Assembly: GCA_035541935.1 (NCBI GenBank)
Contig: DATKMJ010000037.1
Coordinates: 1 to 59,431 of the forward strand
Origin: Candidatus Binatia bacterium
Lineage (GTDB): Bacteria > Vulcanimicrobiota > Vulcanimicrobiia > Vulcanimicrobiales > Vulcanimicrobiaceae
Length of the DNA: 59,431 nucleotides
Reading direction: 5' to 3'
Under the pieces are notes generated by a model that saw only the letters and a program-made list of their open reading frames with translations, was not told the origin of the DNA and searched no databases. Positions within the stretch are counted from its first letter, which is position 1; each line of letters opens with the position of its first letter. This document shows, piece by piece, positions 35,770 to 48,790 of the stretch. A program made the position numbers and the translations under genes.

Positions 35770-36471
35770 GTGCGGCCCGCGTTTCTCTTCGTTCACGGTT
35801 GGCAAGGCGATAAGTCCGTTTGGGACGGCGTCATCGCGGCGCTTGGGCCCGGCGCGGATTGCGTCGCCGTGGATCTGCGCGGCAGCGGCGCTTCGCCACG
35901 GCCCGGCCCGTACAATCTCGAGCAGTTCGCGGCCGATCTGCGCGAGACGGTCGAGTCGCTCGGGATCGCGCCCGTCGTCGTCGTCGGTCACTCGATGGGT
36001 GCGACGGTCGCCTTGCGGTTCGCGCTCGATTCACCCGAGCTGACGCACGGTCTCGTCTTGATCGCCCCCGTCCCCGCGAGCGGCGGCGGTTACTCGGCAA
36101 AGGGCGAGGCCTATCTGCGCGCGACCGCCGGCGATCCGGCCGCAGCGAGAAGTTGGCTCGCGCGCACGCTGCGCGATCCCGGAGCGAACGGAACGCTCGA
36201 CCGCCTCTGCGCGGCCGCCGCGCGTACGCAGCGCGAGGCCGCGTTGGAATCGTTCGAATCCTGGGCGCACGCCGACTTCGCCGAGCAAACGCGCGAGCTC
36301 GCCGTGCCCGCGCTCGTGATCGCACCCGAGCACGATCTGCCGCAGAGCGCCGAGGAGCGCGTGGCGGCGCTGCTTCCCAACGCGCGTTTCGTCGTGCTTC
36401 CCGACGCGGCGCACTACGCGATCGTCGAACTCCCGCACGAGATCGCGGATCTGATTCGCCAGTTCAGATGA
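35770..36471 (+). CDS. Alpha/beta hydrolase
   Basis: 233 residues from GTG 35770, two bases after the cytochrome stop; a longer start at 35650 falls inside the cytochrome gene and is rejected. Typical fold markers: FLFVHGWQGDKSVWD (oxyanion loop), VDLRGSGASPRP, nucleophile elbow VGHSMGATVAL, acid in IAPEHDLP and His in DAAHYAIVE. Cytoplasmic esterase/peptidase-like enzyme; substrate unknown. Convergent with the hyf-like operon, overlapping its last 8 bases. Confidence 0.88.
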   Translation: MRPAFLFVHGWQGDKSVWDGVIAALGPGADCVAVDLRGSGASPRPGPYNLEQFAADLRETVESLGIAPVVVVGHSMGATVALRFALDSPELTHGLVLIAPVPASGGGYSAKGEAYLRATAGDPAAARSWLARTLRDPGANGTLDRLCAAAARTQREAALESFESWAHADFAEQTRELAVPALVIAPEHDLPQSAEERVAALLPNARFVVLPDAAHYAIVELPHEIADLIRQFR

Positions 36472-38599
36472 ACATGACGATGACGAGCGCGACGATCAGG
36501 GTGAGGAGAGCGTAGGCGACGTAGGCGGAGAGCCGCCCGTGGTGCATCTTCGCAAAGAACGAGGCGGCGGCCAACGCCGCGCGCGTCAGCGGAATGTTCG
36601 AGATGCGGTCGGCAAGAAAAACGTCGTCGCGGCTGCGCCGAATTGCCGATCTAAAGTGCTGGTGGATCGTCTCGCGTTCGTCTTCGACCTCCGTCGGGTT
36701 AAAGATCGCATCGAAGATGACGCGCACCGGATTCGAGAAACCCGTGGCGGTATACGTCATCTCGGATAGGAGCGGCGAGAGGCCGCCCGACCACGGCGCG
36801 ATTCGAATCGCTTTCGCGCCCCGACCTATCAGACGCACGACGCCATAGGTGAGGAGCAACAACACGCCGATGAGAACGGCCATATATGTCGTCGACATCG
36901 CGAAGACGACGGGATTGGTCGGACCGCCGCGGAGCATGACGACCCAGCCGCGTCCCGGGAGCCCGGCACCGATCTGCGCTCCCAATGCGTGAAACGCCCT
37001 AACGAATTCGTCGGATAGCGGATTGGGGCCCGCGTGCGGCGTGAAGAACGGGGGAACGAGCGCGGCCGCGACCGCGGACGGACCGAAGATGTCGCTCGCG
37101 CCGCGACCGATCGCGGGAAGCACGTAGGTAGGCAAAACGCCAAGCAGTAGGCACTCTAATGCGAGGATGGCCATCCCCAGCCGCATCGTGCGAGAGGCTT
37201 CCGGGACGTGCGGCAACGGCGTACGCGAACGGCCCAAAAACGTCATGCCGAAGACCTTCACGAAGCACGTAACCGCGAGCGCGGCGGTCAAGGCTAGCGC
37301 CGCGCCGCTCAGCGCGAAGGCGACGCGTAGCCCAAGCGGCGACAGCTCGACGCTCCGGAGCAGCGCTTGAAACGTCAGCCACTCGCTGACGAATCCGTTG
37401 AGCGGCGGGATCGCGGCGATCGCGAGAACGCCAACAAAGAAGAGCGCTGCCGTCACGGGCAGCACGCGGATGACTCCGCCAAGGCGATTCATCGACCGCG
37501 TACCGAGCCGCGCATCAACCGTTGCGGCGCCGAGGAACAGCAGGGCTTTGTAGACGGAGTGGTTGGCTAGGTGATAGACGGCGGCCGCAAACCCGATTGC
37601 CGCAAGGAGGCTTCGATGTTCCGCCTCGAACACGAACGCCACTCCCAGCGCCGTCACGACGATCCCGAGGTTTTCGATCGAACTATATGCCAGCGTCGCC
37701 TTGAGGTCGTCTTCGATCGTCGCGTATAAGATGCCGATCAAAGCCGAGGCCGCACCGATGAAGAGCACGACGACGCCCTCCGCCTCGTAGCGCACCGGGG
37801 CGAGTTGCAGATTGACGAGGACGATGCCATAGATTCCCAAGTTGAGTATAACGCCGGAAAGCAGCGCGGAGACGTTGCCCGGAGCGACCGGGTGCGCCCG
37901 CGGCAGCCATGAGTTCACCGGCAGCAGTCCCGCCTTTACGCCGAAGCCGAAGAACGAGAGGATAAAGACCGCCCAACGCGCGCCGGCCGAGAGGGGCGAG
38001 CCTGCAGCGCTAAAAAGCAACGATGCCGCAGAGGCGTGCGTCATGAGCACGGCGACGATCGCGGCGATCGTACCCGCTTCGCTCGCCGCCAGCATGATGA
38101 ACGCGGCTCTCGCGTTTCGTTCGCGCTCCCACTCGTATGCGACGAGAACCGAGGCGGCAATCGCGACGATCTCCCACACGATGAAAAACGAGACGACGTC
38201 CCGGCAGACGAAGATCGCCAGGACCGCCGCCAACAGAACGCAATACCAGGCGACGAAGGTTCGCAGGGAATGCCCGGCTGCGTATCTCTCTAGATAGCGC
38301 ACGGCGTAAAGTGACGTTGGAATATAAACGAGCGCGGCGATCGCCGCGAAGAGTTCGCCGAGTCGAGTCGTACCGACGGCCATTGGGCCGAGCACGGGCA
38401 GCGACCACAGCAGACGCTCTCCGCTTCCGCCGCCGATCAATGCCATAACGGCCGCGCAGAGGGAGAGCGCCGCCGCGATGCAGCCAGAAAGCGCGAGCAA
38501 CACCGGAGCTCGACGCTCCGGCACGAGCGGAGCCGCGACGGCTCCGGCAATCGCCACGGCAATCGCGATCCCGGTCAGAACGAGCGAAGCGTCGTTCAC
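36464..38599 (-). CDS. hyfB: Hydrogenase-4 subunit B-like / NuoL-type ion-pumping subunit
   Basis: 711 residues from a GTG at 38599 that overlaps the upstream stop (GTGA). About 16 transmembrane helices with antiporter-module residues: a helix Glu in FIVWEIVAIAASVLVAYEW, Lys in GVKAGLLPVNSWLPRAHP, and a helix-breaking segment in ESHS-like HLANHSVYKALLFLG. It matches HyfB/HycC, which pump protons or sodium in formate hydrogenlyase and related complexes. It is the last gene of a six-gene operon headed by a fluoride riboswitch. A long C-terminal tail with RETIHQHFRSAIRR faces the cytoplasm. Confidence 0.92.
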   Translation of the reverse strand: MNDASLVLTGIAIAVAIAGAVAAPLVPERRAPVLLALSGCIAAALSLCAAVMALIGGGSGERLLWSLPVLGPMAVGTTRLGELFAAIAALVYIPTSLYAVRYLERYAAGHSLRTFVAWYCVLLAAVLAIFVCRDVVSFFIVWEIVAIAASVLVAYEWERERNARAAFIMLAASEAGTIAAIVAVLMTHASAASLLFSAAGSPLSAGARWAVFILSFFGFGVKAGLLPVNSWLPRAHPVAPGNVSALLSGVILNLGIYGIVLVNLQLAPVRYEAEGVVVLFIGAASALIGILYATIEDDLKATLAYSSIENLGIVVTALGVAFVFEAEHRSLLAAIGFAAAVYHLANHSVYKALLFLGAATVDARLGTRSMNRLGGVIRVLPVTAALFFVGVLAIAAIPPLNGFVSEWLTFQALLRSVELSPLGLRVAFALSGAALALTAALAVTCFVKVFGMTFLGRSRTPLPHVPEASRTMRLGMAILALECLLLGVLPTYVLPAIGRGASDIFGPSAVAAALVPPFFTPHAGPNPLSDEFVRAFHALGAQIGAGLPGRGWVVMLRGGPTNPVVFAMSTTYMAVLIGVLLLLTYGVVRLIGRGAKAIRIAPWSGGLSPLLSEMTYTATGFSNPVRVIFDAIFNPTEVEDERETIHQHFRSAIRRSRDDVFLADRISNIPLTRAALAAASFFAKMHHGRLSAYVAYALLTLIVALVIVMFI

Positions 38600-39300
38600 G
38601 GCCACTCTTCCTGCCCGCAGACTCTCCGCAGCGCCGCGACGATGGCAAGCGGCGGCGGAGGACAGCCGGGGACGACCAAATCGACGGGCACGGCGCTCTT
38701 CGCCCCGGCCCCGCACATCACCGACGGGCCGAAGATGCCGCCGCTTGCAGCGCACGCACCGGCGGCCACCACTCGCTTGGGAGCCGGCATGGCTTCGTAT
38801 GCGATCTTGAGCGGCTCGAGCATCTGGCGCGTAACCGGACCGACGACGAGCAGGACGTCCGCCTGACGCGGCGTCGGCGTGATGAAGATCCCAAAGCGGT
38901 GCAGGTTATACGACGGCCCGTTGATCTGCGCAAGCTCGTTGAGACACGCGCCGCAATCGCCGGCATCCACGATGCGAACGTGAATCGAACGGCCGAATCG
39001 TGCGCCCAGCGGACCCTGCGTTCCGCCCGTGCCGTGCGCGTGGAGTGCGTCGCGGCGCCAGGCCGCAACGTTCTTGCAGCGCATGCACGCCACGCACCGA
39101 TCCTCGTCCACCTCGACGACGTTCCCATTCTTTTCGAGCGCCGAGGTCGGGCAGAGCGCGATCGCCTCCAACGCCTCGACGTCCCCTGGAAATGTGGTCG
39201 GCGCGGGCATTCCCGGCGAGAGAGCCGTATCGAGGTCGCCCGGCCCCGGCAGCCTCTCGGTAAGGGTCCCCGCACGCAAGCCTCGTAGGAACCAATTCAC
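38596..39300 (-). CDS. hyfI: NuoB/HyfI-type Fe-S small subunit with fused ferredoxin motif
   Basis: 234 residues from the GTG at 39300 overlapping the upstream stop. Residues ~45-80 make a single [4Fe-4S] ferredoxin site (C50 in ALCPTSAL with C69, C72, C75 in RCVACMRC), which replaces a separate HyfH/NuoI protein. The NuoB-like domain keeps all four ligands of the proximal cluster: C116 and C119 (DCGACLNE), C183 (GACAASGG), C213 (VPGCPPPP). It would pass electrons to or from the large subunit. No other ferredoxin subunit or formate dehydrogenase is in the operon, so the electron donor is unknown. Confidence 0.92.
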   Translation of the reverse strand: MNWFLRGLRAGTLTERLPGPGDLDTALSPGMPAPTTFPGDVEALEAIALCPTSALEKNGNVVEVDEDRCVACMRCKNVAAWRRDALHAHGTGGTQGPLGARFGRSIHVRIVDAGDCGACLNELAQINGPSYNLHRFGIFITPTPRQADVLLVVGPVTRQMLEPLKIAYEAMPAPKRVVAAGACAASGGIFGPSVMCGAGAKSAVPVDLVVPGCPPPPLAIVAALRRVCGQEEWP

Positions 39301-40859
39301 CGGTCGTTCTCCGCCACCGAAAGATCGAGCGTAGCCAAAACAATCGGAAAATCCTGAAAAGCAAAGCCCTCGGTCGCGACGTGAAAGCCGTGCCAATTAC
39401 GGAACGACGGCGGTGTCGTTCGATAGCGCACGACGGCCCCGCGCTCGTCCAACTCGACCCACTGTATCGAGGCGCCCCGGGGCGCCTCGGTCCATCCGAG
39501 AGCCGCTCCGCGTCGCATCTGCGGCTCCGCACGAACGGGTCCGCTCGGCAAGTTTTGCGCGAGCGTCTCGAGTATCCGAAGCGACTGCTCGATCTCCCCG
39601 AAGAGCACGCGCAATCGAGCGTAGCCGTCGCCCTCTCGTTCGATGGGAACGTCGAACGCAACGTTCGGATAAGGCTCGTACGGCTGGACGACGCGCATGT
39701 CGGCGGCCACGCCGCCCGCTCTCGCGAATGGCCCGACGAGCTCGAACTCGCGCACCGCGCGCTCGTCTACGATGCCGACGCGTTCGATGCGATCCAAGAA
39801 GCTGCTCGTGTTTTCCAGAGCCGCGCGCATCGCGGCGATCTTGCCGTAGAGCGAGCGAACGGTGGCGGCAGCGCTGCGTACGTCGCGATCGTCGAGGTCG
39901 CCACGGAGTCCGCCGATCGCCAGCACGCCGAAGAGGTAGCGATGACCGCAGAGTTCGCCGGCGACCCGCAGGAGCCGTTCCTCTATCCACAACGCTTGGC
40001 TCGCCGCAACGGTCAGCGAGGTCGACGCGCATATCTCGCGCACAGACGTCGCGTGATGGCGGATCCGCTCCAACTCGGCGCAAAAGCCCCGCAACCAGTG
40101 GGCGCGCCGCGGGGGCTCTACGCCAATCGCTCGCTCGACCGCGCGACAGTATGCCAACCCGTTTCCGATCGCGCTCGTCCCGGCCGTGCGTTCCGCCAAG
40201 AGGAGCACGTCTTCGGCCTTGCAGCCTTCGGCGAGTTTTTCGATGGCGCGATACTTGTAGAATAGCCGGGGAACGGCGCGCACGACGTCTTCGCCGACGG
40301 TTTCCAGCAAGAAGAGCGCCGACTCGGCCTCGCCGGAGTAGATCGGTCCGACCGGCATGACGAAGGCTCCCTCTTCTTCAAGGACTCGCCTCGGTCGCCA
40401 ATCGCGACGCTCCTCTGCGATCTCGTCGCTCGCCTGCACCGTCGATCGCATTAGGCCGACGTTCTCGGCCCACTGATTGTCGTGCAGAACGAAATCCCCC
40501 AGTCTCGGGTGCTGGGCGAACCGCACAGAGAAGAGATCCTCTATCTCGCGTTCGAACCAATCGGCCGCGATCGCGACCGGCGTGATGCTCGGCAGCGTGC
40601 GCTCGACCGGATCGATCGGCGTGACCGCCTGCAGCCAGCCTGGATGGCGCGTCGAATAGAAACAGTAGCGCAGCGTCAAGAGGCCGCCGCTTTCGGAAGC
40701 AACGATCGTGCCGAGCCGCCAATCCCATGCGCGGAGCGTCGCCGCGACGTCGCGCAATTCGCGCGCGGGAACGACGCCCACGATGCCGTCTTCGCTGATG
40801 ATCCACTCGATCGACGGCAGCCGCGTCCGCAGCGCTTGGAACGATTGCGCCAGCATCAT
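39297..40859 (-). CDS. hyfG: Hydrogenase large subunit-like NuoC/NuoD fusion lacking Ni-binding cysteines
   Basis: 520 residues from ATG 40859. Residues ~1-130 are the 30-kDa (NuoC) part with WFEREIEDLFSVRFAQHPRL; the rest is the 49-kDa part (FYKYRAIEKLAEG, ERIRHHATSV). In [NiFe] hydrogenases the first Ni site reads R-x-C-G-x-C; here the aligned stretch is AERTAGTSAIG (225-229 without Cys). The C-terminal D-P-C-x-x-C is also gone (the end reads VLATLDLSVAENDR). So no Ni-Fe centre can form. It belongs with the energy-converting hydrogenase-related (Ehr) or complex-I-like proteins. The catalytic reaction is unknown; quinone or another carrier may bind instead. Confidence 0.9.
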   Translation of the reverse strand: MMLAQSFQALRTRLPSIEWIISEDGIVGVVPARELRDVAATLRAWDWRLGTIVASESGGLLTLRYCFYSTRHPGWLQAVTPIDPVERTLPSITPVAIAADWFEREIEDLFSVRFAQHPRLGDFVLHDNQWAENVGLMRSTVQASDEIAEERRDWRPRRVLEEEGAFVMPVGPIYSGEAESALFLLETVGEDVVRAVPRLFYKYRAIEKLAEGCKAEDVLLLAERTAGTSAIGNGLAYCRAVERAIGVEPPRRAHWLRGFCAELERIRHHATSVREICASTSLTVAASQALWIEERLLRVAGELCGHRYLFGVLAIGGLRGDLDDRDVRSAAATVRSLYGKIAAMRAALENTSSFLDRIERVGIVDERAVREFELVGPFARAGGVAADMRVVQPYEPYPNVAFDVPIEREGDGYARLRVLFGEIEQSLRILETLAQNLPSGPVRAEPQMRRGAALGWTEAPRGASIQWVELDERGAVVRYRTTPPSFRNWHGFHVATEGFAFQDFPIVLATLDLSVAENDR

Positions 40860-42289
40860 GCCCCCAAAATACGCGCTGCGCTCTCGAGCAGACGGCCGAG
40901 ATCGGCGGGTATCCAGAGGCCTAGAACGACGACGGGAACCGCCGCAAGAACGATCGCCAACGCACACGCGGCCGGCATTCGCGGGTGAAGGCGTTGCGCT
41001 TCGGGCCTCCCGGAGATCATCTGCGTCACGTGCCAGAGAACGCCGAAGAACGCGAGCACGAGGAACGCCGCCAAAATTGCGACGAGTGCATATGCGTGGG
41101 CGGCGATGCCGGCGCGGAGTATCGCGAGCTCGCTGAGGAAGGCCGCGAACGGCGGCGCGCCGCCGATCGCCAGACCCCCAAAGAGCAGGGCGAGCGCCGC
41201 GCCCCTGCTGATGCCGAGCAGGCCACGGACTGCGGAGATTTCGCGCGTGCCGGTCACAAGCAGCGTCGCGCCCGCAGCGTAAAAGCAGAACGATTTCGTG
41301 ACCGTGTGCGCGAGCATCTGCCAAAGCGCCGCGACGTCGCCCGCCGGCGTGAAGATGCTCGCGGCCGCGAGAATGATGCCCATGTGCTCGACGGTCGAAA
41401 AGGCGAACAGCCGCTTATAATCGTGGGTCCGCACGATGAGGACCGCGGCGACGACGACGGAGAGCAGACCGAATACCGCAAACCACGTGCCGACGTGCAG
41501 CGCTGCATCGGTCGCGTAGACGCCCCGCAGCCGCAGGAGCACGTAGAGGACGACGCTCGTCTCCACGCCCGAAAGCATGGCACAGACCGGCGACGGAGCT
41601 TGACTGTGCGCGTCGGGCAGCCAAGTGTGCAGCGGGACAAAGCCAATCTTAACGCCATAGCCGACGAGGAGCAGGACGAACGACACGGCGAGCAAGGCCG
41701 GCGGCATCCGCGAGGCGCCGTCGCGAAGGCCGCTCCAGGTGAAATCCGTGCTGCCGCCCGAGTGGAGCGCCCAGAAGAGCGTGAGCACGCCCAGCACGGC
41801 GATCGTCGCGCCGAGCAGCGTCAAGACCATGTATTTCCACGCGGCTTCGATCGCTTCGCTCGTCAGCGAATAGCTGACCAGCAAAACCGAGAGCAGCGTC
41901 GTCAGCTCCACGAAAATCCATACCAGGCCTACTTCGGCGAGCAGCGGGATGCAGAGCATGGAAAACGCGAACAGGTTGAAGTTCGCATAGTAAAGCCGCG
42001 CGCGCTGCGGCCGCCGTTCGCTTTTCAGGTATCCCCACGAAAAGAGCGACGCCGTGAAGTAGACCAGGGCGATCAGCGTCAGGAGCAAGGCCCCGAAAGA
42101 GTCCAGCTCGATCCAATGCTTGATGACGAGCAGCTCGCCGCTGCCGTGCGCGGAGGCGACCGCGATGAAGCAGAGCGCGAGCGTAGCCGCTGCGGCGGCG
42201 AGCGTGGCGATCGGCGCCGAGCGATCGCTGCGAGGGATGGCCGGCCACAGCGCGGCGACGAGCGCGACGACCGGAACGTAGACGATCAC
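40856..42289 (-). CDS. hyfF: HyfF/NuoN-like ion-pumping membrane subunit
   Basis: 477 residues, about 14 transmembrane helices. Antiporter-module markers: Glu in WIFVELTTLLSVLLVSYS and Lys in GYGVKIGFVPLHTWLPDAH, plus YKRLFAFSTVEHMGII. Second of two Mrp-type pumping modules of the complex, so two ion paths are expected together with HyfB. ATGA/GTGA overlaps join it to its neighbours on both sides. Confidence 0.92.
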   Translation of the reverse strand: MIVYVPVVALVAALWPAIPRSDRSAPIATLAAAAATLALCFIAVASAHGSGELLVIKHWIELDSFGALLLTLIALVYFTASLFSWGYLKSERRPQRARLYYANFNLFAFSMLCIPLLAEVGLVWIFVELTTLLSVLLVSYSLTSEAIEAAWKYMVLTLLGATIAVLGVLTLFWALHSGGSTDFTWSGLRDGASRMPPALLAVSFVLLLVGYGVKIGFVPLHTWLPDAHSQAPSPVCAMLSGVETSVVLYVLLRLRGVYATDAALHVGTWFAVFGLLSVVVAAVLIVRTHDYKRLFAFSTVEHMGIILAAASIFTPAGDVAALWQMLAHTVTKSFCFYAAGATLLVTGTREISAVRGLLGISRGAALALLFGGLAIGGAPPFAAFLSELAILRAGIAAHAYALVAILAAFLVLAFFGVLWHVTQMISGRPEAQRLHPRMPAACALAIVLAAVPVVVLGLWIPADLGRLLESAARILGA

Positions 42290-42954
42290 GGCGCCCTCTC
42301 GCGAAGCGCGGAGAGGGCGCCGACCTCCGTCGTGCCGATCTGTCGATACGCGATCCGAGTGAGCAGGCCTACGATGAAGGCCAGCAGGGGCACGTCGAAC
42401 GCGATCGCGAGCTCGGCGATCAGGGGGAAATCCGGCGCGATGGCGATGCCGGCTAAGAACGCCCCGTTCTCCATCGCAAGAATCCCGAGCAGTTGCGGCA
42501 CGGCCTCGGTGCGAACCGCTAAGAGCAGCAACCCGACCAAGAGCCCCGCGAATCCCATCGCGAGATTCCCCGAAGACAGGCTCGGGGCCGAGCGCGCGAG
42601 GTGTTGCGCGAAGGCGTAACCCACCAGCGTGAGCGCGAGCGAGAGCAGGAGCGCCGCGGGAACGTCGATTGCCTGCGAGAGCTCGCGCCTACGGTGCACC
42701 TCGGCCGGGACAAGCGAGCGGATCAGCCACGGAATTACGATCACCTTGCTGGCGATCGTCACGCACCCGAGTGCGATCAGATGCCACGAGAGCGGCGACG
42801 CGCCGAGCAGAAACGCCGAAGCCGCCAGTAAGAGCGATTGAAGGATGAAGAGCTGCATGCACGCGCCGATCTGCCGTATTACGACCATCGAGATCGCTGC
42901 GAGTATGAAGAGGCCGAGAACCAAAGCGTTGAGCTCGGTCAGAATCGCGCTCAC
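42286..42954 (-). CDS. hyfE: Hydrogenase-4 subunit E-like membrane protein
   Basis: 222 residues from a GTG at 42954 that overlaps the hyfC stop. Six to seven transmembrane helices (LNALVLGLFILAAISMVVI, LQSLLLAASAFLLGAS, LAMENGAFLAGIA, FDVPLLAFIVGLLTRIAY). HyfE-type proteins fuse a NuoK-like portion with extra helices and sit between the HyfC anchor and the pumping subunits. NuoK-type Glu residues are visible (ELNAL, MENGAF). Confidence 0.88.
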   Translation of the reverse strand: MSAILTELNALVLGLFILAAISMVVIRQIGACMQLFILQSLLLAASAFLLGASPLSWHLIALGCVTIASKVIVIPWLIRSLVPAEVHRRRELSQAIDVPAALLLSLALTLVGYAFAQHLARSAPSLSSGNLAMGFAGLLVGLLLLAVRTEAVPQLLGILAMENGAFLAGIAIAPDFPLIAELAIAFDVPLLAFIVGLLTRIAYRQIGTTEVGALSALRERAP

Positions 42955-43901
42955 AGGTGCAGCAATTGCGTGATCATAGCCGTAACCGACACGACGAACG
43001 CTCCCCCAAGGAACTCGGAGATTCGAAAAAGTCGCAACTTCGAATACGAGGACTCGACCACGACGATCGCCACGATCAACGCGACGATCTTGAGCGAGAC
43101 GGCCCCCGCGGCGAGCGCCACGGCCGGCACGGAGCCGTCGCCGGCGAGGCCCCACGGCGTCGTCAAGACGTTCAAGAAGACGATTGCCAATACCGTAAAC
43201 TTCATGTAGCCGCCGTACTTGATGAGCGCAAACGAGCGACCGGAAAATTCCAAGGCCTTCGACTCGTCGATCATCGCCAACTCGAAATGCCCGCTCGGGT
43301 TGTCCACCGGGATACGTCCCGTCTCCGCCAGGATGATCATGAAGAAGGCGATCATCAGCAAGATGTGCGACGGCGCGAAGAAGTTGGCGATCGGATGCAC
43401 CCAATGCTGTTGAACGATGTACGGAATCGTGGAGTTAGCTACGAACGAGACCGTGAAAAGCGCGACGATGATGACGGGTTCTGCCAGAAACCCGACCATG
43501 CGCGTGCGGCTCGCGCCCATCGTCCCGTACGGGTTCTCCCCGTCGATCGCGGCGAGCGTGAAGAAAAAACCCGAGACGGCGAAGATGAACCCAGCCGCGA
43601 GCATATCGCCGGCAAACGCGAGGAAGAGCGGGAAGCTCGTCAGCACGGGGATCAGCATCGTGATGAGGAGCGGCACGACGAAGACGAGGTAGGGCGCCGT
43701 CCGGAAGATCCAACTGCTGCCCTCGGGGACCCGTTCGTCTTTACCGAAAAGTTTGCGGAGGTCGCGATAGGGCTGGAAGATGCTTGGGCCGCGCTTCGAC
43801 TGCACGAGTTCCTTACAGCGAGCTAGGAGCCCGGCAAAGAGGGGCGATAGCGCGAGAACGAACGCTAGCTGCGCGAGGTTGAGGGCGACGGCTTCGGGCA
43901 T
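42951..43901 (-). CDS. hyfC: HyfC/NuoH-like membrane anchor subunit
   Basis: 316 residues, about eight transmembrane helices. NuoH-type motifs: RCKELVQSKRGPSIFQPYRD in the first cytoplasmic loop (quinone-channel region) and AETGRIPVDNPSGHFELAMI. It anchors the soluble Fe-S arm to the membrane. First gene of the operon; its ATG at 43901 has the site GGAG (43913-43910) 8 bases upstream, which can be hidden by pairing with the 3' strand of the upstream fluoride aptamer, so translation of the operon start should be fluoride-dependent. Confidence 0.93.
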   Translation of the reverse strand: MPEAVALNLAQLAFVLALSPLFAGLLARCKELVQSKRGPSIFQPYRDLRKLFGKDERVPEGSSWIFRTAPYLVFVVPLLITMLIPVLTSFPLFLAFAGDMLAAGFIFAVSGFFFTLAAIDGENPYGTMGASRTRMVGFLAEPVIIVALFTVSFVANSTIPYIVQQHWVHPIANFFAPSHILLMIAFFMIILAETGRIPVDNPSGHFELAMIDESKALEFSGRSFALIKYGGYMKFTVLAIVFLNVLTTPWGLAGDGSVPAVALAAGAVSLKIVALIVAIVVVESSYSKLRLFRISEFLGGAFVVSVTAMITQLLHL

Positions 43902-43907
43902 CGTGAG

Positions 43908-43939
43908 GGCTCCGTACTCAAGGTTTGTGAGTAGGAGCC
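43908..43939 (-). promoter_or_regulatory. Riboswitch expression platform: SD-hiding hairpin upstream of hyfC
   Basis: On the minus strand GGCTCC (43939-43934) and ACTCA next to it can pair with TGAGT and GGAGCC (43920-43908), giving a 6+5 bp hairpin that buries the Shine-Dalgarno GGAG (43913-43910). The same GGCTCC is the 3' strand of the aptamer closing stem, so the two structures exclude each other. Fluoride binding should free the ribosome site. Confidence 0.75.
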
Positions 43940-43981
43940 ATCATCCCAAAGCGGGCCCTCGCGAGCTCCATCGCGTCCGTG
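43934..43981 (-). ncRNA. Fluoride riboswitch (crcB motif) controlling the hyf-like operon
   Basis: Reading the minus strand: CGCGATGGAGCTCGCG forms the paired core with GATGGAG; then come CCCGC-TTT-GGG (small stem) and ATGATGGCTCC closing the long stem (GGAGC with GCTCC), followed by TAC. This order matches the fluoride riboswitch consensus (GGCGATGG ... CGCC ... AACCGC ... CTGATG ... CTCCT). Published surveys of this RNA class report formate-hydrogenlyase-type genes among its targets, which agrees with the operon here. Confidence 0.82.
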
Positions 43982-43988
43982 TAACGCG

Positions 43989-44018
43989 AGTATACCGGAG
44001 CCGGCTGCCGAGAGGCAA
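43989..44018 (-). promoter_or_regulatory. Sigma-70-type promoter of the hyf-like operon
   Basis: On the minus strand TTGCCT (44018-44013) and TATACT (43994-43989) are separated by 18 bases. A start around 43982 would put the fluoride aptamer at the very 5' end of the transcript, as expected for a riboswitch leader. Confidence 0.65.
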
Positions 44019-44030
44019 GAAGGATTAGCT

Positions 44031-44729
44031 TTGCCCGCTGTCAAGGGTTCGGCCGTGCGACGCGGCGACGACGGATTTGCGACGACGATAGCAATGCTCT
44101 CTCGCGACCGACCCGTGCGCAAAGCGTTGAAGCGCGCCGCCGGATCCCCATTCGTCACTGCCGACGTGACGGCTTTGCTGCTCGGCCACGATCTGTGGTT
44201 TGCTCCGCTGGCGGGCTTTCGCGACCAGTTGATACGGACCGGAGAGCGCCCGCACCTATGGACGTTCGACCTCGGCCCTTCCGGCTCGTGGGACTCGACG
44301 CGGTGGCGCGCGCTTTCGCCAGATGCCCGGGTTCTTCGAGCGCGGACCGGAGCCGTCGATCGTCGCGTCCGCGGGCTGCCGACGGCTAACGCCCTTCAGA
44401 TCGACCCGCGACTCTTTGTGAATGCGTTGAGCGAACTTGCCCAAGCCGGGCTGTACGATGAATCGGTGAAACTCTTCGCGCCGGTCGGCTCCGTCGCCGC
44501 GTTGCACACCGATCTCTCCCTCGTTCAGATACTCGCGCACTGGCTCGTCATGCTGCGTCATCGCGAGCGGGTGCTTGCGGATCGCCACGCTACGGGACTT
44601 GAGGTTCATGGCTATGCGGAAGCGTGCTCGCGCTGTCGCGAACGCTGGGGGCTTCGGCCGTTCGAACCGCGTTGGGCACCGCCGTTCCATCCGGGCTGCC
44701 GATGCTTCGCGCAGCCTCGATTCGCGTAG
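44031..44729 (+). CDS. Hypothetical protein with C-terminal Cys/His zinc-like motif
   Basis: 232 residues from a TTG at 44031 preceded at 6 bases by AAGAAGGA. No signal or membrane segment. The C-terminus has ACSRCRERWG and then PPFHPGCRCF, a C-x2-C ... H-x2-C-x-C pattern like the tail of phage head-morphogenesis (Mu F/SPP1 gp7) proteins, where the motif reads HPxCRC; the rest does not look phage-like. It lies alone between two fluoride-riboswitch operons, divergent from hyfC. The 3' end overlaps the convergent 44590-45243 gene by 140 bases, so one of the two 3' ends may be wrong. Confidence 0.55.
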   Translation: MPAVKGSAVRRGDDGFATTIAMLSRDRPVRKALKRAAGSPFVTADVTALLLGHDLWFAPLAGFRDQLIRTGERPHLWTFDLGPSGSWDSTRWRALSPDARVLRARTGAVDRRVRGLPTANALQIDPRLFVNALSELAQAGLYDESVKLFAPVGSVAALHTDLSLVQILAHWLVMLRHRERVLADRHATGLEVHGYAEACSRCRERWGLRPFEPRWAPPFHPGCRCFAQPRFA

Positions 44730-45246: not shown

Positions 45247-45609
45247 TTACGAGGGCGTCGTAACGATCGGTTCCGTGTCGAAAAGCAGATCCTCGACCTG
45301 CTCGTGCTTCTGCAAACGCACTTTGAGCTCCGCGATCCTCGCCTGTAAGAGCCTCGCCCGGTCCAGGATGATCTCGCGATCCGCGAAGGCGCCGGCATTA
45401 CGCATTCGCTCGATCTTTAGATTGCGCATCGACTCTTGCAGTTCGAAGTGTTCCGAGGCATATTGCCGTTCGAGGTCGTACATGCGCCCGCTGCGCGCCT
45501 TCAACGTCTCGTTCAACGAGCGCACGCGCTCCTCGAGCTCGTTGCAGCGGCGTGCGAGCTCTTCTGCCAGTCGATCGTCCTGCTTCGATTTTGTCCGCCG
45601 TCCGATCAC
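45247..45609 (-). CDS. Coiled-coil protein under fluoride riboswitch control
   Basis: 120 residues from a GTG at 45609. After a basic N-terminus (IGRRTKSKQDDR) nearly the whole chain has heptad character: LAEELARRCNELEERVRSL, LERQYASEHFELQESM, LLQARIAELKVRLQKHEQ. No signal or membrane helix. GAGAGG-type ribosome site 8 bases upstream lies inside a short hairpin (CTCCT with AGGAG, 45636-45621) that competes with the aptamer stem. First gene of a two-gene unit transcribed away from the Nudix-dynamin-CrcB operon. Likely a structural or adaptor protein; function unknown. Confidence 0.7.
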   Translation of the reverse strand: MIGRRTKSKQDDRLAEELARRCNELEERVRSLNETLKARSGRMYDLERQYASEHFELQESMRNLKIERMRNAGAFADREIILDRARLLQARIAELKVRLQKHEQVEDLLFDTEPIVTTPS

Positions 45610-45628
45610 GAGTACTGCCTCTCCTCCG

Positions 45629-45682
45629 GAAAGGAGCCATCAGCCATGTAGGCGGTTAATCGGCGAGCTCCATCGCCGCCGA
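45629..45682 (-). ncRNA. Fluoride riboswitch (crcB motif), leftward copy of a divergent pair
   Basis: On the minus strand the core reads GGCGATGGAGCTCGCC, then GATTAACCGCC, a short loop, and GGCTGATGGCTCCTTTC. This fits the fluoride riboswitch consensus at every conserved block (GGCGATGG, TCGCC, AACCGC, CTGATG, CTCCT). The closing strand GGCTCCTT can alternatively pair with AGGAG of the ribosome site of the coiled-coil gene, giving translational control. It forms a 15-bp inverted repeat with the rightward copy at 45729-45780. Confidence 0.88.
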
Positions 45683-45728
45683 TTCCTTTGAAGGATCGGA
45701 ACGCGGCTCCTGCGAAGTGTCTTGCAGT

Positions 45729-45780
45729 AAGGCGATGGAGCGCCGCCTTCGACCGCCGCTCGCCGGCTGATGGCTCCTTC
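45729..45780 (+). ncRNA. Fluoride riboswitch (crcB motif), rightward copy of a divergent pair
   Basis: The plus strand reads GGCGATGGAGCGCCGCC, then CGACCGCC, a loop, and GGCTGATGGCTCCTTCTC. The conserved blocks are as in the leftward copy with small changes in the paired parts. It precedes the Nudix - dynamin - DUF190 - CrcB operon, whose last gene is the fluoride channel, the classical target of this RNA. Only 46 bases lie between the two aptamers, and no convincing promoter for either direction was recognised there. Confidence 0.85.
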
Positions 45781-45811
45781 TCGATGAAGTCTATTGAGAG
45801 GAGCATTTTTT
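45773..45811 (+). terminator. Riboswitch-controlled terminator/SD-hiding hairpin
   Basis: GCTCCTTCTC (45773-45782) pairs with GAGAGGAGC (45796-45804) with one bulged T, followed by a run of six T (45806-45811). The left arm is also the closing strand of the fluoride aptamer, so ligand binding should prevent the terminator. The right arm is the ribosome site of the Nudix gene, so both transcription and translation could be switched. Confidence 0.78.
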
Positions 45812-46277
45812 GAATCATTATTTGGTCCGAGTCAGCGCGGCGATCCTCCGTCCCCGCGACGAGGTGCTGGCGCTTCGGCAACTGGATCGCGGTCTCGAAC
45901 GAATAGCTCTCCCCGGCGGGACTGCCGATCTCAACGAATCGCTCGAAGAAGCGCTCGTGCGCGAAGTTCGCGAGGAGACCGGTTGCGAGGTCCTTCCCAG
46001 CGACATCGCGTGCGTCGCAGAAGGCTATAACGACCGCTGGTCGCAGCCGACCCTCGATGTGTGCTTCTATGCTCGGATGCAGGGGCGCGTGCAGGCGCCC
46101 GAGCGGCTCGGCGAATACATCGTCGGCATCGAGTGGATGGCTTTGGACGACCCCTCGCTCCTAACGTTCGTTCCGCACGTCGCGGGCTTCAAATGCAGCC
46201 GCCGGGGTCGATACGTCGACGAGACTGGGGCGTTTCGACGCAAGAAGGCGGCATGGAATCTCAACGGTCCATCGTGA
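45810..46277 (+). CDS. Nudix hydrolase, fluoride-riboswitch operon
   Basis: 155 residues from a TTG at 45810, placed 6 bases after GAGAGGAG; no better start exists. The Nudix box is complete: G-x5-E-x7-REVREETG within GGTADLNESLEEAL and VREVREETGCEV. A C-terminal part includes EWMALDDPSLLTF and a basic tail. Nudix enzymes cleave nucleoside diphosphates linked to another group (damaged nucleotides, NADH, ADP-ribose, dinucleoside polyphosphates). In fluoride stress it might remove nucleotide-fluoride by-products or signalling dinucleotides, which is speculation. Its end overlaps the GTPase gene by 25 bases. Confidence 0.88.
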   Translation: MNHYLVRVSAAILRPRDEVLALRQLDRGLERIALPGGTADLNESLEEALVREVREETGCEVLPSDIACVAEGYNDRWSQPTLDVCFYARMQGRVQAPERLGEYIVGIEWMALDDPSLLTFVPHVAGFKCSRRGRYVDETGAFRRKKAAWNLNGPS

Positions 46278-47971
46278 TAGAGGACGCGATAGCGCGAACT
46301 CGCGCGCTGGCGCGCCTTCTAGAAGACGAGACGACGGAAAGGCTCGCGCGCGAGCTTGGCGATCAAGTTCCGACCGGGGAAATAAACCTGCTCGTCGTCG
46401 GTCAGTTCAAACGCGGGAAGAGCTCGCTCATCAACGCACTGTTGGGCGACGACGTCATGCCGACCGGGGCCCTGCCGCTCACCGGTGTAGTAAGCTGCAT
46501 TCGCTACGGGAACGAACGGCGGATCGATGTCTCCTTCCGGCATCGCGAGGGTCTCACCATCCCGGTCGACGAGTTGCCGCTCTACGTGACCGAACGCTAC
46601 AATCCGGCCAATCGGCTCGGCGTGGACCGCGTTGAAGTGACGTGGCCTGCGGAGGCGATCCGCGGCGTCGTGCTCTTCGACACCCCCGGCATTGGCTCGA
46701 CGCACGCGCACAACACCGCGATCGCTCGTGCGGCGTTGCCGCGGGCCGACGCGGCCATCCTCGTCGTCGGACCGGAGCCGCCGATCGGAGCCGCGGAGCT
46801 GCAGTACGCGCGCGAAGTCGTTGAGTCGTCCGAACGTCTCTTCGTGGTTTTGAACAAGAGCGACATCGCGGGAAGCGCCCTCTCCGAAATCCTCAAGTTT
46901 ACGGACGAGGCGCTCGACCAAATCGCCGGCGCTCGCGGCGTCGATATCGCGCTCTTGAGCGCGACCGTCGCTCGCGACGCCCAGCGACGCGGCGAACGCG
47001 ATCCGGCATTCGCCGCATTCGTCGAATCGCTGCGAAGCTTCGTCGAGCAGCACGGCGAGGCGACGCGCACGCGCTCGATCCGGCGGCGAGTGACGGCGCT
47101 GCTGCAACGGCTCGACGCCCTGCTCGCGATGCGTGCCGCAGCGCTCGCTTTACCTATCGCCGATCGCGCAAAGCGAAAGGCCTCCGTCGAACGGGTCTTC
47201 GAGGCGCTCGGCGATCGCGCACGGTCGCTCGAACTGATGGTCGACGACGACGTGCGTCGATTGCGGCTCTCGCTCGAAGAAGCGATGGACGGATTTCACG
47301 ACCGCGACGAGCCGGCGTTCCGGGCGCTCGGGGCAGAACTTGCCCGAGAAAGCTCGGCCGAGCGTCGCGGCGCCGCGTTGGAGCAAGCTGTGAACGAGCG
47401 CGCGTCCGCCTGGCGGACGGATGCGGTACGCCAAGCCTCCCACCAAATAGAAGCGGATTCGGCGAAGTACGGGCGCCTTCTCGGGGAGATCGAAGCGTCC
47501 GCGATAGAGGCCGGCTGTCGGCTGCTCGACGTTGACGCCGCGAAGCCGGTAGCTCGCACGATTGAATTCGAACCGGCGCGGATCGGCCCGGCCGCATCGC
47601 TGACGCCGACGACGGGACTCGAGCTGCTCGGCGCTCTCGCGACCGATCTCTTACCACGCGGATTGCGCGAACCGCTTCTACGGCGTCGCTACAATCGGAT
47701 ACTCTCGCGCGAACTCGACGCGCTCCGAGGCAAGCTCCGTTACGGCATTGGGCACGATCTAGAGCCCTGGAGGCGGTCTGCGCACGGAACGATCTCGTCG
47801 TCGATGGAGGCAGCCCGGCGCGCCGTTTTAGGGGCTTTCGAAGAGTTGGCCGACGAGGCGAGCGACGCCGGCGCGCGAGAGTTGGGCCGCGTGCAGAGCC
47901 TGCGGGAAGAGCTGCGCGTGCTGCACGCAAATCTGGCGGACTCGGAGTTGCCCGTCGCGTCGGCAATGTAG
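46253..47971 (+). CDS. Bacterial dynamin-like GTPase
   Basis: 572 residues from ATG 46253 (AAGAAGGCGG upstream), overlapping the Nudix gene. GTPase motifs: G1 GQFKRGKSS (50-58), G2-type Thr in ALPLTGVV, G3 DTPG (143-146), G4 NKSD (201-204). The G1 form with Gln-Phe-Lys is the dynamin-family signature. The rest (~270-572) is helical: long stretches such as RVFEALGDRARSLELMVDD and RVQSLREELRVLHANL, with a hydrophobic patch GLELLGALATDLLP (~525) that could insert in membrane. Such proteins tubulate or repair membranes. Location between a fluoride riboswitch and CrcB suggests a membrane-protection role in fluoride stress. Confidence 0.88.
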   Translation: MESQRSIVIEDAIARTRALARLLEDETTERLARELGDQVPTGEINLLVVGQFKRGKSSLINALLGDDVMPTGALPLTGVVSCIRYGNERRIDVSFRHREGLTIPVDELPLYVTERYNPANRLGVDRVEVTWPAEAIRGVVLFDTPGIGSTHAHNTAIARAALPRADAAILVVGPEPPIGAAELQYAREVVESSERLFVVLNKSDIAGSALSEILKFTDEALDQIAGARGVDIALLSATVARDAQRRGERDPAFAAFVESLRSFVEQHGEATRTRSIRRRVTALLQRLDALLAMRAAALALPIADRAKRKASVERVFEALGDRARSLELMVDDDVRRLRLSLEEAMDGFHDRDEPAFRALGAELARESSAERRGAALEQAVNERASAWRTDAVRQASHQIEADSAKYGRLLGEIEASAIEAGCRLLDVDAAKPVARTIEFEPARIGPAASLTPTTGLELLGALATDLLPRGLREPLLRRRYNRILSRELDALRGKLRYGIGHDLEPWRRSAHGTISSSMEAARRAVLGAFEELADEASDAGARELGRVQSLREELRVLHANLADSELPVASAM

Positions 47972-48044: not shown

Positions 48045-48386
48045 ATGAAGCTCGAAGGGTCGGGGAAGCTGCTTCGGATCTTCGTTGGCGAGAGCGATCG
48101 CTGGGGCTATCAGCCCCTCTACACCGCTATCGTCGAGGCCGCGCGCGCGGCGGGCATCGGGGGCGCGACCGTCTTTAAAGGAATCGAGGGCTACGGCGGC
48201 CATTCCGTCGTGCACGCAGCCCGCGTCTTCGACCTCTCATCGGACTTGCCGATCCTGATCGAGATCGTCGACGTGGAAGAACGAATCCGCGCTTTCTTGC
48301 CTCAGCTCGACAAAATGGTCACCGAGGGCATGGTAACGCTCGAAACCGTGGAGGTCATTGCCTATCGCCTCGGTTCACCCAAGTAG
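48045..48386 (+). CDS. DUF190 family protein, CrcB-associated
   Basis: 113 residues, a ferredoxin-like PII-type fold: KLLRIFVGESDRWGYQPLY, IVEAARAAGIGGATVFKGI, GYGGHSVVHAARVF and LPILIEIVDVEERI. DUF190 proteins are found next to or fused with CrcB fluoride channels and are assumed to regulate them or bind a nucleotide. Two bases separate it from crcB. A 73-base gap precedes it, holding a small hairpin (GAGGA-AAC-TCCTC) but no second fluoride aptamer. Confidence 0.9.
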   Translation: MKLEGSGKLLRIFVGESDRWGYQPLYTAIVEAARAAGIGGATVFKGIEGYGGHSVVHAARVFDLSSDLPILIEIVDVEERIRAFLPQLDKMVTEGMVTLETVEVIAYRLGSPK

Positions 48387-48388
48387 CC

Positions 48389-48790
48389 GTGAATCCGACC
48401 CTCTTATCGTTCGCAGCCGTTGGACTCGGCGCGGGCTGTGGCGGCATGTGCCGTTATGCGCTGACGCTGCTCGTTGTCGGAAAGTTCGGACCCGGCTTGC
48501 CAATCGCGACCCTCTTCATTAACCTGTCCGGATCGTTTCTCATCGGACTGCTCAGCGAGTTGGCTCAAACTCGCGCAGTCGGCATTGACCCCCTTCTGCG
48601 CATCGGACTCACGACCGGCGTCCTCGGCGGATACACGACGTTCTCCAGCTTTGCCTTCGAGACGCTCACACTCGGGGGCGAGCGGGAATGGCGACTCGCT
48701 TTAACCTACGCCGTATGCAGCGTCGTATTCGGTGTCGCACTCTGCTACGCGGGGATGGTCCTGGCGCGCGTCATGGTGAGATCGGCCTAG
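48389..48790 (+). CDS. crcB: Fluoride ion channel CrcB/Fluc
   Basis: 133 residues from a GTG, four transmembrane helices. Fluc signatures: AGCGGMCRYALT, FINLSGSFLIGLL (N-x-x-G-S-F type), and GGYTTFSSFAFET, the break in helix 3 that holds the structural Na+ and lines the pore. It works as an antiparallel dual-topology dimer to export fluoride down its gradient. Only one copy is seen, as in homodimeric forms. Last gene of the riboswitch operon; its 3' end overlaps the convergent OFA transporter by 4 bases. Confidence 0.95.
   Translation: MNPTLLSFAAVGLGAGCGGMCRYALTLLVVGKFGPGLPIATLFINLSGSFLIGLLSELAQTRAVGIDPLLRIGLTTGVLGGYTTFSSFAFETLTLGGEREWRLALTYAVCSVVFGVALCYAGMVLARVMVRSA

Follow-up and report, generated by a model that had tools for sequence, protein, structure and literature searches.

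Why should a fluoride-sensing RNA stand at the head of an operon for a membrane complex resembling complex I and hydrogenase-4? The question is raised by a stretch of 59,431 nucleotides (hereafter the window; contig DATKMJ010000037.1 of assembly GCA_035541935.1, titled Candidatus Binatia bacterium), in which a putative fluoride riboswitch precedes the genes hyfC-E-F-G-I-B, read from 43901 to 36464 on the minus strand. The genome of the window comprises 2.41 Mb, is 98.95% complete, and has records of Candidatus Eremiobacterota as its nearest named relatives. The crcB motif, as this RNA class is called, has been associated with formate-hydrogenlyase genes since 2010 (PMC2864571), and a 2024 review repeats hydrogenlyase as its target (PMC11139923); no physiological explanation for the association was found in the literature searched. 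By computation we find an aptamer with a competing hairpin before hyfC, the loss of the NiFe ligands from the encoded complex, a coupling of the two that is clade-wide and clade-specific, and operons shared with the fluoride channel CrcB. The best reading of the system is an ion pump, induced by fluoride and probably redox-coupled, that would support fluoride expulsion and be controlled by a strand-exchange switch at hyfC; to this reading we assign a probability of roughly 0.6. A first-pass annotation of the window had already put a fluoride riboswitch, with an expression platform legible from the sequence, at the head of a complex-I/Hyf-like operon, and had named formate-hydrogenlyase genes, in agreement with the two publications above, among the targets of the class; the finding is real, and wider than that annotation supposed.

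The hyfC aptamer and its expression platform

Three matches to the fluoride riboswitch family RF01734 were found by Infernal genome-wide, and all of them lie inside the window, less than 2 kb from one another (Table 1). The match before hyfC has the P1 stem and the pseudoknot of the family, GGAGC (43965-43969) pairing with GCUCC (43934-43938), including covariation among relatives, and it shares with the crcB motif the conserved AUG/GAUG elements, the leader position 5' of the first of a set of fluoride-related genes, and a platform hairpin in competition with the pseudoknot. It differs from that motif in its P2, which reads GCCC/GGGA in place of the family's G-C-closed stem and does so in close relatives too, in a hairpin that hides the ribosome site and has no T-run end, and in a score below the cut-off. 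At the gathering threshold, which is a matter of curation and no biological feature, cmscan reports the other two aptamers and not this one (29.2 versus 34 bits). The weak score fits the changed P2, and with a covariance model of the window's phylum, built with this sequence included, the same aptamer reaches 54.2 bits.

The promoter TTGCCT-18-TATACT is the sole sigma-70-like site in 43850-44100 (shuffled sequences, mean 0.0). Downstream, the platform hairpin forms an 11-bp stem with one bulge, and none of 200 shuffled sequences folded at equally low energy. Its 5' arm is the 3' pseudoknot strand of the aptamer, GGCUCC, and its 3' arm holds the Shine-Dalgarno sequence GGAG (43910-43913), 8 nt ahead of the hyfC ATG. 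When fluoride is absent, GGCUCC would accordingly pair with GGAGCC and hide the Shine-Dalgarno sequence of hyfC; when it is present, the pseudoknot GGAGC/GCUCC would retain the strand, leaving the ribosome site free and the hyfCEFGIB messenger open to translation. The fold is computed, and fluoride switching in this organism is what the sequence and the known class lead us to infer. These results uphold what the first-pass annotation had said of the leader: the aptamer it placed at 43934-43981 on the minus strand is extended by Infernal to 43925-43984, its promoter is the only candidate in that region, and the swap of GGCTCC that it proposed to bury the ribosome site is structurally right. 

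Neither a terminator nor a T-run was found in the window between the aptamer and hyfC, so that an intrinsic-terminator switch was rejected and control of hyfC in the window is interpreted as probably translational. In relatives the pseudoknot strand is likewise taken up into counterpart hairpins, many of them with T-runs (L087, L091 and many loci from other phyla), and members of the family seem to use either termination or hiding of the ribosome site via one and the same strand exchange. The scan behind this comparison, which counts single ungapped helices, undercounts bulged hairpins and credits the window's own with only 6 bp.

A NiFe-less complex and the reach of its coupling

The subunit set named by the first-pass annotation, hyfC-E-F-G-I-B, was borne out by Pfam and homology; its description as hydrogenase-4-like was not, as far as function is concerned. 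Among solved structures the large subunit comes closest to HycE of the formate hydrogenlyase of E. coli (7z0s_E, 2.9e-53). Where HycE has CGIC and DPCYSC, the window's protein has AGTS and DLSVAE, and intact NiFe motifs occur in 0/81 aligned large subunits (the window and 80 relatives, here called type A), among which LSVAENDR is conserved in place of DPCxxC. HypD (PF01924) is absent from the genome of the window and missing in 22 of 50 other type-A genomes, and formate dehydrogenase was not seen among the recurrent neighbors of type-A loci. Because the NiFe motifs are lost completely and HypD is absent, we conclude from the sequences that the complex is not a NiFe hydrogenase; the label hydrogenase-4/formate hydrogenlyase was rejected on these grounds. 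Its subunits are homologous to those of Hyc and Hyf, from which it differs, apart from these absences, in the ferredoxin-like domain that its small subunit carries as a fusion.

The complex is instead, as judged by its predicted subunits, of the energy-converting-hydrogenase-related (Ehr) type, having group-4-like large and small subunits and NuoH-like and antiporter-like membrane subunits while lacking the NiFe ligands, an assignment made by match to the published description (PMC6349859). In this it resembles EhrA/C/L/S of Geobacter and the Ehr complexes of comammox Nitrospira and Margulisbacteria (PMC6349859, PMC7894505, PMC10284858), and what is distinctive here is its membership of a clade, type A with its sister type B, that carries the fluoride riboswitch. 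It should therefore be labeled a NiFe-less Ehr complex and no longer a hydrogenase.

The subunits retain much of what a working complex would need. The HyfF-like subunit keeps E133, K219, K337 and E392 across relatives, and the HyfB-like subunit E148, K227, K305, H352, K356 and E411; in the small subunit, the fused one-cluster ferredoxin-like domain retains C60, C79 and C85 in 79/79 loci and C82 in 78/79, and the N2-type cysteines C126, C129 and C193 are conserved in nearly all. With the antiporter lysines and glutamates and the FeS cysteines conserved, the complex may be able both to move ions and to transfer electrons.

To learn how general the coupling is, some 85,000 species genomes were scanned with the window-type large subunit, and the type-A loci described here are the best 80 of 195 confirmed; they come from more than 10 phyla, some being contigs of metagenome-assembled genomes, and the organism names are those of the record titles (L140, a type-A locus with an aptamer, is titled Nitrospira japonica). 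Since a simple pattern scan missed most aptamers, a covariance model was used instead, built on 31 aptamers of the window's phylum with all kinds of target, the window's own included. Among the 69 testable loci, in which the hyfC start is present on the contig, 61 have a same-strand aptamer less than 600 nt before hyfC and seven of the remaining eight have one 0.8-3.4 kb upstream, so that 68 of 69 carry it; in the sole exception (L127), close to the contig end, hyfC is immediately preceded by a hyfB-like gene. Three loci (L108, L121, L129) show the order aptamer-CrcB-DUF190-hyfC, which by its arrangement is one operon with the fluoride channel, and four (L109, L123, L128, L137) the order aptamer-dynamin-hyfC. 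Pseudoknots of hyfC aptamers are 97% paired versus 84% in shuffles (maximum 87%), which ignore kinship, and five or more compensating forms (GGAGU/ACUCC, GGAGC/GCUCC, GGGGU/ACCCC, GGCAU/AUGCC, GAGGC/GCCUC) span several phyla. Viral contigs searched with the large subunit gave nothing, and plasmids gave 246 records, only distant relatives below 60% identity.

The coupling is also specific. The sister NiFe-less clade, type B, likewise stands behind fluoride aptamers in the same phylum (L063, L085, L088, L101, L102 and others), and four genomes (G048, G033, G082, G084) carry both types. Operons of the window's phylum with an RxCGxC motif had no aptamer nearby; none was found at the 10 NiFe-bearing and 28 other NiFe-less relatives examined, nor, by comparison of contig coordinates, near the other Hyf-like large-subunit genes that 42 of 200 sampled Pseudomonadota genomes possess. 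Three of the Pseudomonadota loci read have DPCYSC, without an aptamer, and the remainder are NiFe-less with NCSYSG-like ends; the sampled NiFe-less group ending in NCSYSGNDL, unlike types A and B, has no fluoride riboswitch. A maximum-likelihood tree of the sampled loci, made by a quick method, with some long branches and a rooting that is not secure, recovers type A as one clade (support 100) and has A and B together at one end of a branch (97); the NiFe-bearing group is weakly joined. A fluoride link that arose once, in an ancestor of A and B, would fit.

Feature coordinates and neighboring genes

Table 1. Coordinates, strands and supporting evidence of the features of the window.
Feature	Position	Strand	Evidence
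Sigma-70-like promoter TTGCCT-18-TATACT	43989..44018	-	9/12 matches; ends ~5 nt before aptamer
hyfC fluoride aptamer (RF01734 type)	43925..43984	-	29.2 bits, E=4.1e-6 genome-wide
Expression-platform hairpin GGCUCCUACUC...GAGUAcGGAGCC	43908..43939	-	-17.9 kcal/mol, z=-6.0
HyfC/NuoH-like membrane subunit	42951..43901	-	PF00146, E=1.1e-33
HyfE-like membrane subunit (start inferred by homology)	42286..42951	-	Place and conservation in 74 aligned loci; no Pfam match
HyfF-like antiporter-type subunit	40856..42289	-	PF00361, E=3e-46
HyfG-like large subunit, 30 kDa + 49 kDa, without NiFe cysteines	39297..40862	-	PF00329, PF00346
HyfI/NuoB-like 20-kDa small subunit (start uncertain)	38596..39315	-	PF01058, E=1.6e-25
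HyfB-like antiporter-type subunit (start uncertain)	36464..38599	-	PF00361, E=5.5e-45
Second fluoride aptamer, ahead of small coiled-coil-like open reading frame 45247-45609(-)	45624..45686	-	46.7 bits
Third fluoride aptamer, ahead of Nudix - dynamin-like GTPase - DUF190 - CrcB	45722..45786	+	41.8 bits
Nudix	45810-46277	+	PF00293
Dynamin-family GTPase	46253-47971	+	PF00350
DUF190	48045-48386	+	PF02641
CrcB fluoride channel	48389-48790	+	PF02537

The second and third aptamers are divergent, about 36 bases apart, and head opposite operons. Genes for a dynamin-family GTPase occur in 23 of 81 related loci and stand directly behind an aptamer 11 times. Enolase occurs in nine loci, behind or beside fluoride aptamers at L144:2197-3483 and L116:4180-5445, as expected of a fluoride-sensitive enzyme, and MutS-like and metallophosphatase genes also share the fluoride islands.

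Alternative readings and the proposed role

Entry of HF acidifies cells, and export of fluoride by Fluc draws on the membrane potential (PMC11139923). The recurrence of the aptamer with a NiFe-less complex in more than 10 phyla suggests that the complex probably helps cells to survive fluoride rather than to make hydrogen. The predicted product would combine a HycE/NuoD-like large subunit unable to hold NiFe, two antiporter-type subunits with intact lysines and glutamates, and a small subunit that carries, besides an N2-like site, the cluster of a fused ferredoxin-type domain; most likely it would couple electron flow from a carrier to H+ export, or to Na+ exchange. By such pumping the cell would regain the membrane potential and the internal pH that HF entry dissipates and on which CrcB (Fluc) would depend to expel fluoride. 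Restoration of potential or pH under HF, a guess already made in the first-pass annotation, is still the leading idea, and it gains indirect support from the operons shared with CrcB and from the conserved antiporter residues.

Several observations weigh against a redox-coupled fluoride pump. The window's hyfC aptamer, as described above, scores under Rfam's curated cut-off. The fourth N2-type cysteine of the small subunit (C223) is replaced in more than half of the family. Large subunits have tyrosine or phenylalanine at the position that we take to correspond to the quinone histidine of complex I, so that redox coupling could be lost. Type A is rare as well, being present in one of the 200 sampled Pseudomonadota genomes, that one being the sample's center, which makes it one solution among several. 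As to C223, Asn, His or Gln frequently stands in its place, chiefly where position 206, 17 residues before it, is Cys, a pattern in which a shift of ligand is possible.

The changed quinone position speaks for the alternative that survives best, namely an Mrp-like cation/proton antiporter without redox activity, its soluble arm being a structural relic, which fluoride induces as it does NhaA-type antiporters. The loss of NiFe and the conserved antiporter lysines and glutamates would both suit it, and Na+/H+ antiporters are among the commonest targets of fluoride riboswitches (PMC11139923). However, the cysteines of the ferredoxin domain and three of the N2-type site are kept in nearly all loci, which would not be required of a relic, and we regard this alternative as unlikely, if the most serious of the four. 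Less probable still is a redox enzyme acting on a new substrate at the former NiFe or quinone site, which fluoride would induce so as to replace or bypass an energy step that it poisons, such as enolase or ATPase, ion movement not being its purpose. It would account for the conservation of LSVAENDR where DPCxxC stood, and enolase, MutS-like, dynamin and metallophosphatase genes suggest that the islands also repair fluoride-sensitive functions; yet no partner enzyme recurs alongside the complex, and its ion-translocating subunits are still intact.

That the hyfC aptamer is a degenerate relic and hyf constitutive, as the sub-cut-off score might be taken to imply, is very improbable, given that the same variant stands in the same place in relatives, with a covarying pseudoknot and matching hairpins. 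Least credible is that the complex is a genuine formate hydrogenlyase or hydrogenase-4 which fluoride induces and which consumes protons as H2 to de-acidify the cell: the likeness to HycE, the identical subunit set and the name given to the target in the literature speak for it, but all 81 large subunits lack the four ligands, HypD and a recurrent formate dehydrogenase are wanting, and no aptamer lies near the gene in NiFe-bearing relatives, whether of the same phylum or of Pseudomonadota.

A literature search for links between the fluoride riboswitch and Hyf, hydrogenases or complex I returned nothing relevant, and neither the NiFe-less identity nor the fluoride link or the clade-wide coupling was found in the literature searched, Baker et al. 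2012 (Science) and its gene lists lying outside its reach. The function of the Ehr complexes of comammox Nitrospira is described as unknown (PMC10284858). We put forward, tentatively and at somewhat less than even odds, that this widespread NiFe-less, complex-I-like clade may be a dedicated fluoride-defense pump that energizes CrcB, which would account for the riboswitch targets listed as formate hydrogenlyase since 2010. A coupling that is clade-wide and clade-specific, together with operons shared with CrcB, joins two puzzles, that of Ehr function and that of the formate-hydrogenlyase association, and by adding fluoride one gains a direct, inducible assay of what an orphan branch of the complex-I family does.

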